Source: a virus. From it: DNA of 24,719 bases. Below, piece by piece: positions 1,795 through 22,830 of this stretch. Location: the IMG/VR virus record IMGVR_UViG_3300024520_000476, positions 1 through 24,719 of that record. One strand, 5' to 3'. The position numbers and the translations under genes are program-made. The notes under the pieces were generated by a model, which searched no databases, had not been told where the DNA came from, and worked only from the letters and a program-made list of their open reading frames with translations. Positions within the stretch are counted from its first letter, which is position 1; every line of letters starts with the position of its first letter.

Positions 1795-4700
1795 ATGGTT
1801 GCCAACCGTGGAACTATCCCGTTAGCGGAACTTCGTTCTGAACGTCGTAAGAAGTTGACTGCTTCACGATCAGAGATCGTGAACGCAGTCAAGCCCGCAA
1901 AGACGATAGAACACAAAGGTCGCGTGACGCGTACAGCGACCAAGAGTACGTTGCTTGACAGTCTGGGCTTAGGTGATTACACCTCGGCATCGGATTTCAA
2001 CCCCTATAGCGGCAGTTACGGTTCTTCGGGCATCTATACGGGTCAGGGTACCTCAGAGTACACACAGGATCTGATGGGGATGACCCGACCGAAACCTGAC
2101 TATCCGGCGTGGATGGATCTGTGGAATGCCACTCCGGGGCCGGTCAAGTGGGGACTGAAAACAGCCGGTGGGCCGTTCCTCAATGCCCTTGAGGCTCTCG
2201 CTATTCCCTTGTCGGCAGTTGCTGCGAGTATGGAAAACATCTATCTGGTTGGCTACAACCAGTTGGATCCCGAAGGGATGCGGAATAACCCGACGGCTTT
2301 GGCGGCGTATAACGATCTTTGGGAGATGGCGAATGATCCCAACTTGCTCAAAGCGATAGGCAAGTTTTCGTACGACACTTTGTGGGATCGTAGAAAGTCT
2401 GGTTCCCATGATTTCATGTATGGGCAAGGCGACATCTTCAACACGTTCAACATCTGGCAGGGTGAGAGAGGCACCGATCAGGAATGGGAATGGTGGGCGA
2501 ATCGGGGTGCTGCCCTTCTTGGGGATCTCAGGATGGATCCCTTGATGCTCGGTAAGACTTTCGGAACACTTTCTAAGTCTATTGCTCGTAATATGCAAAC
2601 TGGTGACTCGGCTATCAAGTTGGGTAGAACGTATACTGCTCAGAAACTAGACGATGTTCTTAGACCTCTGTTCAAGCGTGAACTAGGTGCTGGCGGGGGT
2701 GTAGCCAAAGCGGCACCCAAGGTGGCGCGTCAGTCTACTCTTGCACAGAAACAAACAGCGTTGAGGGTTGCCGAACGTGGGGCTAAAGCCGCGTTGAATC
2801 CGAAGACCCGTGAAAACTACCAGAAGTTGGCTGACCGCCTTCGGCGTGAGATTGCCGGTGGTCCGGCGGGACCACCCGCTGGTCATACCTTGCAGGTGGC
2901 GGAAGAACGCGTAGTCGGCGAGGGCGCTGAACGGATATACCAGTTTTGGGATGAGATGGGAACACCGTTTACTGTTACATGGAGGGGGGCGGAGGTACTT
3001 GATAAGTTTGGACAGATGCGGCCAACCAAGGCCGCTGACTTGGAAATCGCGGTCCACAGGGTGGCCCGACAGGCGCAACCGCATGTTCCGAATGCAAGAC
3101 CGACACATCCGAGTCAAACAACTCGCGGGGGGATTGGCAACGACACGGTGATCGACGGCGATCTGTTCTCAGCGGCAGGCAGGAGAGCGGCTGCGCTGGT
3201 GATGGAAGCGGAACTTGGAGCGACACGACGGGTTGCTGAGCGGTTGGCTCCAAAGGCTGTCGATGATGCGGCAGCAATGACATCCGTTTGGCAAGAAGCG
3301 GTTATGAACCGCATGTCCGACAAACAGTTCGTGTTGCAGGTCGCTAGGGACTTGAGTAAGGGCACCAGTCAGATAGTTGTCCGTGAGGGTGATAGAACAT
3401 TTATCAACTTTGGAGCAAAGTTCGGACAGCACCGCAAGGTGGCTGAAACCGTAGGTAACAAGATTCTGAAGGTTGAAATCCCGAAGAATGTCGCAGACGA
3501 CATTGGACGGCTTGCAGACTATCTGATGATTAGTTCGCGTGAAGGTCCGCTGAAACTGACAAACGAGGGATACAAGTTTGCTGCAAAAGCAATGCACGAA
3601 GTGGGCATGGACCCGTTTTTCAACCTCGGACCACGCACACTTCTGAATGGTGTAAAAGTGCCTGCGGAAACAGGGTTCCGCACGGCTGGGACCACTTTCC
3701 GCGCTGGGCGTGTAGGAAAAGAGGCGCTTGATGGTGCCGCGACACTAGCCCCTGTTACGGCTAGTGAGGCGGCACATGCCGGATTCAGGATTGGTTTAGC
3801 GGTTCCGTTTACGGGATCTATGGGTCGCAAACTGTTGGTGAATCCGGTTCGTAAGCGACTGTTGGGCATGATGGCTTTGCCGGATGCGGTGCCGATGTTG
3901 GCGTGGAGCGCCAGCAACAAGTATTTGGGTCGCCCGCTGGTCGCGGCCAACAACTTCATGCGGAAAGCGTTTGTCGGTAGGGGGAACCGGTATTCAAAGA
4001 TGGGTGGCAAGACGGGTGAGTTCAGAAAGACTATCCGTAAGAGCAAGGATCCTTGGGAAGTTATTGATGCCAAGGCAGCCATCCTTGCGGTAGGACGGGG
4101 TTCTCAGATGACTCGTTCTGCTGAACAGTTGCTGCATCGGATGTTTCAGGATGTAAAGGACGCCATTCAGACTCATCCACGTTTGGCACGCGACCACCCT
4201 GATGGTGGTGCCGTGCTGCAACGTGCGGTTTGGGGCAATGAGGATGCGGTACAGATCGTTCGGGAGGCAGCCGGTGATGAACTGTTTGACCAGTTCATTT
4301 CGTTACTTCCCCGGATGGCCGACGAGTTAGAAATCAAGGCCGGTAGGAAGTTCATAGGGCGGGCAAACAACTATGGACCGCGTAAGATTTCAAAAGAAGC
4401 GCGGGAGCATATGTCGAAGAGGCGTCCCGGCTCAGTAAGGAAGAGGCACCAAAGAAAGCCATATGATGCGGGACCGCATGAACTTGAACGCAAGTATGTG
4501 GATCAGGACGAGTTCGCTGCTCTAGTCCAGAAGTACATCCGCGAGGGGATGGAACCTGAGGCTGCTATAGAACAGGTTGCGAAGATAAAGAGTGACGAAA
4601 TCTTCGGCCAGAAGTTGTTCAAGGTCAACACCATCATGGACGACGGCATGAAGGCACCATCTGTAGAAGAACAGATCGCCAAGATCATGGACGACATGGA

Positions 4701-22367: not shown

Positions 22368-22388
22368 CGGCTACTTGCTTTCCTTGCG

Positions 22389-22468
22389 TGGAGGTGCGGG
22401 GAATCGAACCCCGGTACTCATGCGTTCCCACATGGGGCTTTCACATGAGGCGAAACCATTTCACCCCC
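22389..22468 (-). ncRNA. tmRNA-type tRNA-like domain without mRNA part
   Basis: This 80-nt element reads 5' to 3' as follows. The acceptor strand GGGGGTG (22462-22468) pairs with CACCTCC (22390-22396). AAATGGTTTCGC replaces a normal D-arm, as in tmRNA (GGTTTCG). An 8-bp stem CTCATGTG/CGCATGAG (22442-22449 with 22417-22424) stands where tmRNA has P2. A 17-nt cap contains CCC-ACAT-GGG in plus-strand terms. The T-arm is CGGGG-TTCGATT-CCCCG (22397-22413), and the discriminator is A22389. No CCA is encoded. A full tmRNA has about 250 or more nt inside P2, with the tag frame and pseudoknots; here all of that is missing. It may be a tRNA mimic, a decayed tmRNA or the 3' domain of a larger RNA. Confidence 0.7.
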
Positions 22469-22830
22469 TTGCGACCGTTTGCAGCGCCCCGGTGGAACCT
22501 AATCTCCTCTGACGCCGCTTCTTATGTCAACTACGTTGACGAACAGGGGAACGGTCACTCCCCGCAGCGGTCAGGTCGCCACCCTATTATGTAGGGGACT
22601 TACACAGGCTTAGACCCACTATCCGCTTGCGAGTGATAGGTGAATCTAATCTGGTTGTAGCCAGACCCCATGCGTCTACAACCGCACGGAACCTGATGCC
22701 CACGTACCCCGGAGGGGTACCGCTTGCAGCCTGAGAGCCTATTTATGCACGCTGCAACGTGCTGCATGGGTGCCCCCGCCTCCCCTTGAGGCAGAGACAC
22801 CCACACATGGTGCCATGACAACACCGCCAA
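22469..22830 (-). ncRNA. Highly structured gene-free region, putative RNA
   Basis: This stretch holds no supported protein gene. By eye the minus-strand transcript forms many stems. In plus-strand coordinates they are 22767-22803 (14 bp in three blocks), 22747-22751/22758-22762, 22704-22710/22714-22720 (7 bp), 22653-22660/22676-22683 (8 bp), 22610-22623/22635-22649 (about 14 bp), 22582-22586/22592-22596, 22546-22550/22559-22563, and 22526-22531/22535-22540. The last two lie side by side inside 22509-22513/22570-22574, a three-way junction. It leads straight into the tRNA-like domain. It could be one large RNA with the 22389-22468 element at its 3' end. No match to RNase P RNA or to a tmRNA tag frame was seen. 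Confidence 0.5.

Follow-up and report, generated by a model that had tools for sequence, protein, structure and literature searches.

The stretch of viral DNA considered here, referred to throughout as the window, comprises all 24,719 nucleotides of IMG/VR record IMGVR_UViG_3300024520_000476, a 24.7-kb virus record that encodes an endolysin, an AEP primase, a DnaB-like helicase and a PD-(D/E)XK exonuclease. On its minus strand lies an 80-nt element, read from 22468 to 22389, that corresponds to the tRNA-like domain (TLD) of tmRNA, with a self-cleaving ribozyme and a second structured RNA upstream. The 721-bp region around the element has no DNA similarity to isolate phages, and comparison of the window helicase with isolate phages gave one match, at 30%. 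The features of the locus, with the evidence for each, are as follows:

22389..22468, minus strand: TLD-only tmRNA, with acceptor, D-loop analogue, P2, hairpin, T arm and A73 (RF00023, 61.1 bits at 22386-22468)
22462..22468, minus strand: 5' acceptor strand GGGGGUG, with G3 at 22466 (sequence; 7/7 pairs including G3:U70)
22449..22457, minus strand: D-loop analogue GGUUUCGCC, without a D-stem (aligned to the tmRNA consensus GGaUUCGAC)
22442..22448, minus strand: 5' strand of P2, UCAUGUG (covarying helix 2)
22425..22441, minus strand: loop of 17 nt that closes P2, AAAGCCCCAUGUGGGAA, and contains a 3-bp CCC/GGG hairpin (helix 3; family motif AAARCC...GGA)
22418..22424, minus strand: 3' strand of P2, CGCAUGA (family alignment)
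22397..22413, minus strand: T arm CGGGG UUCGAUU CCCCG, perfectly paired (RF00023 match; family alignment)
22390..22396, minus strand: 3' acceptor strand CACCUCC, with U70 at 22392 (sequence)
22389, minus strand: A73 (sequence)
22469..22590, minus strand: stretch of about 120 nt between linker RNA and TLD, overlapping the end of the linker-RNA alignment region (locus comparison)
22580..22702, minus strand: conserved structured RNA between Pistol and TLD, here called the linker RNA (alignment A5, five loci)
22698..22762, minus strand: Pistol self-cleaving ribozyme, upstream of the TLD on the same strand (RF02679, 51.8 bits)

Read 5' to 3', the element runs GGGGGUG AAAU GGUUUCGCC UCAUGUG AAAGCCCCAUGUGGGAA CGCAUGA GUAC CGGGG UUCGAUU CCCCG CACCUCC A. 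The acceptor has seven pairs, with a G-U at pair 3; P2 has seven to eight pairs and is closed by 17 nt; the linker, GUAC, is of the GGAC type; and A73 is directly followed by CGC, so that CCA is not encoded. The initial annotation had placed the element at the same coordinates, and its description of the acceptor, the D-loop analogue without a D-stem, P2, the 17-nt closure and the T arm agrees in every part with the sequence and with RF00023.

The element is a tmRNA TLD without its mRNA part, as had been proposed from its appearance. RF00023 matches it from end to end (model positions 1-374) with 61.1 bits and an E-value of 7.5e-22, against a gathering score of 47 bits; the mRNA part is deleted, a few nucleotides taking the place of some 290 model positions. 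A family model, R1, scores the window element at 89.9 bits, the window sequence being part of the model seed. There is no tag reading frame with a resume codon in the 17 nt that close P2, nor any conserved frame across 59 sequences of the family, and neither the RF00023 match nor the family alignment places pseudoknots between the P2 strands. The initial annotation had set three findings against its own reading, namely a standard cloverleaf, a permuted or split tmRNA, and relatives lacking acceptor and P2 pairing; none was encountered. ARAGORN called neither a tRNA nor a tmRNA on the window, and the alignment as a whole does not preserve the cloverleaf-like minimum-energy fold with a D-arm that a single sequence can adopt. 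That fold would be explained if the D-loop GGNUU paired with AARCC, but the AARCC partner fails to follow where N is not U (L030, L041, L042 and L076); P2 covaries in 7/7 pairs. A permuted, two-piece tmRNA is rejected by a score of 19.5 bits with RF04321 against a cut-off of 47. As for a full tmRNA whose 5' end lies far away, the calls that ARAGORN makes in six related loci (L005, L055, L117, L279, L295 and L296) look spurious: their 5' ends are coding or ribozyme sequence, and the one part they have in common is the 3' end of the TLD. The folding energy of the window element departs only mildly from expectation (z -2.2), and its minimum-energy fold is a different, local one, so proof of the fold has to be comparative.

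A first search pattern, a T-loop and a D-loop analogue 20-50 nt apart, matched at least 120 viral-contig stretches, and a structural scan of these together with helicase-related loci gave 57 short TLDs in which 6-7 acceptor pairs form and G3:U70 is present. The same short form, for which the initial annotation had proposed a search of related phages, was found by structural scan at 156 loci in all, including INPHARED phage loci and a handful of other architectures. In the main searches a covariance model built from ten sequences gave short forms about 40-96 bits and tRNAs no more than about 32. In an alignment of 59 distinct sequences to this model, standard pairs occupied 95.9% of pair cells, compared with 64.3±0.9% when partners were shuffled (0/500 shuffles reached the observed pairing) and at most 56% when the structure was slid along the alignment. 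As relatives keep the pairing to this degree, chance is excluded. Acceptor and P2 pairing is maintained by compensatory change: in these sequences both sides have changed in 17 of the 22 pairs, and the covariation score reaches 0.761, compared with 0.140. P2 (helix 2) is paired in 93.2% of cells with both-sides changes in 7/7 pairs, the closing hairpin (helix 3) in 90.9% and the T arm in 100%. An independent parse, which leans slightly towards pairing by optimising the P2 register, found 95.5% of P2 paired versus 44% with swapped partners. The D-loop and T-loop motifs were built into the search patterns and their conservation is to that extent circular; the acceptor, P2, the ends of the T-stem and position 73 lay outside those patterns. 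Conservation of GGNUUCG in the D-loop was thus imposed by the patterns, and the BLAST-found Streptomyces phages BRock, Alone3 and Tomas depart from it.

Several variants of the form are worth recording. At L013 2366-2428 the element is a minimal 63 nt, with a GCAA tetraloop closing P2, and at L160 3340-3385 the hairpin loop of the TLD carries an insert, GUCGCACGCGGUGACCGGAC, that recurs at 3660-3690 in the downstream coding region in the manner of a short repeat that has jumped. In alignment A4 the position after UUCG in the D-loop changes together with the second base of the linker (UUCGAC with GGAC, UUCGUC with GCAC, UUCGCC with GUAC), a possible tertiary covariation to which L112, with UUCGAC and GUAC, is an exception.

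The G-U pair by which alanyl-tRNA synthetase chiefly recognises its RNAs had been named in the initial annotation as a feature to look for, and it is present as G3:U70. Among 85 distinct elements, filtered on nothing more than 5 of 7 acceptor pairs, it is kept in 84, the single departure being a chance or tRNA match, and A73 is found in 85/85. Chargeability of the family looks selected, since G3:U70 and A73 are kept while acceptor pairs 4, 5 and 6 range freely over GC, CG, UA and AU. About a fifth of short forms encode CCA. Given that a pure SmpB sponge needs no G3:U70, we infer charging of the RNA and, probably, its delivery to ribosomes.

The family is almost completely restricted to viral DNA. 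A second, more specific pattern gave 111 matches in viral contigs and one in bacterial and archaeal genomes totalling 257 Gb, and that sole match lies on a contig of a metagenome-assembled genome which, as it carries genes for a terminase large subunit, PhoH and an HNH endonuclease, is a phage contig. Among 50 whole records bearing the short form, many of them fragments, none has an SmpB gene and one has a tyrosine integrase, which the window record lacks; the element would therefore have to act on the SmpB of the host. Isolated phages carry it too, unannotated as an RNA gene: the Streptomyces phages LuckySocke, BRock, Shaeky, Alone3 and Tomas and the Stenotrophomonas phage Jojan60, with GiJojo and pSt2308 added as full-length matches by BLAST alone. 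This absence from annotations arises because ARAGORN misses or miscalls short forms; its calls overlap 9/156 of them, and each of the six calls inspected extends to a longer gene whose 5' end is implausible. In the Streptomyces phages the short form sits inside a tRNA array, and across the family 18/156 loci have at least three tRNAs within 2 kb. Streptomyces phage Tomas has both a full-length tmRNA (97147-97421 of its record) and a short form (L205 1478-1555) with a decayed D-loop, GGUGUGAUA; the D-loops of Alone3 and BRock are altered too. In Gordonia phage GMA2 the structural scan revealed a full-length tmRNA-like gene, unannotated in the record (L209 1122-1530), in which acceptor, D-loop and T arm are about 400 nt apart.

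Upstream of the TLD, the arrangement seen in the window is shared in part by its relatives. The element is carried by three contigs with a related helicase (L122, L160 and L163), and Pistol occurs also in L122, L163, L055 and L118, and by motif in L279. The linker RNA matches no Rfam family and was found in five viral contigs only, in all of which a TLD-only tmRNA lies downstream; the UGUAG of its hairpin loop, GUUGUAGA, can pair with a downstream CUACA as a possible pseudoknot, and its enclosing helix CAGG/CCUG changes to CGGG/CCCG. L122, L163 and L055 all lack, at one and the same position, the stretch of about 120 nt that separates it from the TLD in the window; L118 and L110 have a different insert there. 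The position between linker RNA and TLD seems to be a hot spot where RNA modules insert. Since L112 and L160 have the TLD with neither Pistol nor linker RNA at that place, Pistol is ruled out as an essential part and the two upstream RNAs form a separable module, which perhaps releases the 5' side of the transcript. Other structured RNAs occur nearby in these phages: a conserved, GC-rich and structured-looking stretch lies directly 3' of the TLD in L160 (3420-3540) and in L118 (after 1050), with the sequence GGGUGUACGNNCACCGUGGUARUYGCAGCGGG... and no Rfam match at the gathering cut-off, and type II hammerhead ribozymes are found in relatives of the window phage at L160 143-219 and L165 423-489.

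Among the readings of the element, the decoy role raised in the initial annotation is the leading one. We consider it probable that this widespread phage RNA family, a tmRNA reduced to its TLD, inhibits host trans-translation during infection. RNase P and RNase Z would trim the element like a tRNA, the host would add CCA, and alanyl-tRNA synthetase (AlaRS) would charge it with alanine; host SmpB and EF-Tu would then bind it in place of host tmRNA. The element would both soak up SmpB and, once charged, enter stalled ribosomes, where it could offer no resume codon and no template switching, with the outcome that tagging and mRNA release by the host are inhibited. A molecule similar to the 'TLD only' tmRNA of DS6A strongly inhibits tmRNA in E. 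coli, and does so whether or not it is chargeable (PMC4131195; PMC11915505); as the published inhibitor needs no charging, the strictness of G3:U70 suggests more than SmpB titration. tmRNA can be antiviral, in that its deletion restored virus growth in recoded E. coli (PMC6207430). Against an inhibitor stands the need of some phages for tmRNA, lambda immP22 requiring it for rescue rather than tagging (PMC2862035). More tentatively, TLD-only tmRNAs might be a general, convergently maintained phage counter-measure, in which dead-end tmRNAs chargeable with alanine enter stalled ribosomes together with host SmpB and shut off trans-translation; their bearers would be phages, for the most part lytic, that infect several bacterial phyla, and bacterial chromosomes would almost never keep them.

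The main rival to inhibition is a working rescue factor that leaves no tag: alanyl-TLD with SmpB would enter stalled ribosomes, take the peptide and help to free the ribosomes for translation of phage mRNAs, with no phage protein being marked for degradation. Strict G3:U70 and A73 fit a molecule that needs charging, lambda immP22 requires precisely rescue rather than tagging (PMC2862035), and tagless mitochondrial tmRNAs have been retained together with SmpB, with a proposed role in dealing with incomplete mRNAs (PMC11915505). We nonetheless regard such a factor as unlikely: without a resume codon and stop it has no known release step, and the similar TLD-only molecule inhibits tmRNA instead of supporting it (PMC4131195). 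Rather less probable is a tRNA-shaped processing signal, cut by RNase P and RNase Z so as to separate flanking mRNAs in the phage transcript, its likeness to tmRNA being incidental. The element does lie between genes on the transcribed strand, some relatives have the self-cleaving Pistol ribozyme upstream, and some members sit in tRNA arrays; an ordinary tRNA would be enough for the task, however, and processing needs none of the conserved G3:U70, the tmRNA D-loop, or P2 with its AAARCC hairpin.

The full alanine identity set could serve a decoy aimed mainly at AlaRS or EF-Tu, lowering host charging with SmpB not the target, but a tRNA-Ala minihelix would suffice for this and the conserved P2 and closing hairpin would be left unexplained, which makes it very improbable. 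Phages integrate in tmRNA genes, and their attP cores retain the 3' half only; the BLAST matches in the mycobacteriophages Shandong1, Squirty and Validus, which look like 3' halves beside integrases, are likely to be such remnants. Extending this origin to the family, as a remnant of host ssrA in an integrating phage (the attP core) or as a decaying tmRNA gene, is barely credible and is refuted for the family by the presence and covariation of both halves; moreover, 49/50 records lack an integrase, and no copy on a bacterial chromosome was found in the 257 Gb of genomes from bacteria and archaea.

Should inhibition of trans-translation prove to be what the family does, host ribosome rescue would be a common phage target, and the family would provide ready-made inhibitors for a pathway under study as a point of attack for antibacterials. 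Experiments can already address the question, since isolated phages of Streptomyces and Stenotrophomonas carry copies.

As a kind, the TLD-only phage tmRNA is already known, from mycobacteriophage DS6A, and was reportedly first described there by Mao et al. in 2009. The initial annotation, which knew of no such reduced form, was in this respect mistaken: DS6A carries a 'TLD only' tmRNA (PMC4131195; PMC11915505), the one phage case found in the literature searched, and 'standard, no CDS' tmRNAs number 9 of 97,179 catalogued (PMC11915505). With standard bacterial tmRNA (RF00023) the window element shares the acceptor with G3:U70, A73, the D-loop analogue, P2, the GGAC-type linker and the T arm, but it has no tag frame, no pseudoknots and no helices beyond a short hairpin, and measures 80 rather than about 350 nt. 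Tagless mitochondrial tmRNAs and plastid tmRNAs of about 65 nt (PMC11915505) are organellar, permuted in mitochondria and partnered by nuclear SmpB, whereas the element is viral. Full-length tmRNA genes are likewise found in phages (Bxz1 and Wildcat, and in two pieces Melnitz, PMC9004378), yet these keep the tag frame that the short forms lack. The closest likeness is to the DS6A molecule, which is similarly phage-borne, little more than a TLD and without a tag frame; it comes from a single phage and is likened here by description, whereas the present family spans dozens of diverse phage lineages with a common AAARCC hairpin ending P2. Relative to the literature searched, what is new is this spread and this hairpin, the near-exclusive viral location, the near-invariant G3:U70 and the ribozyme-linked arrangement.
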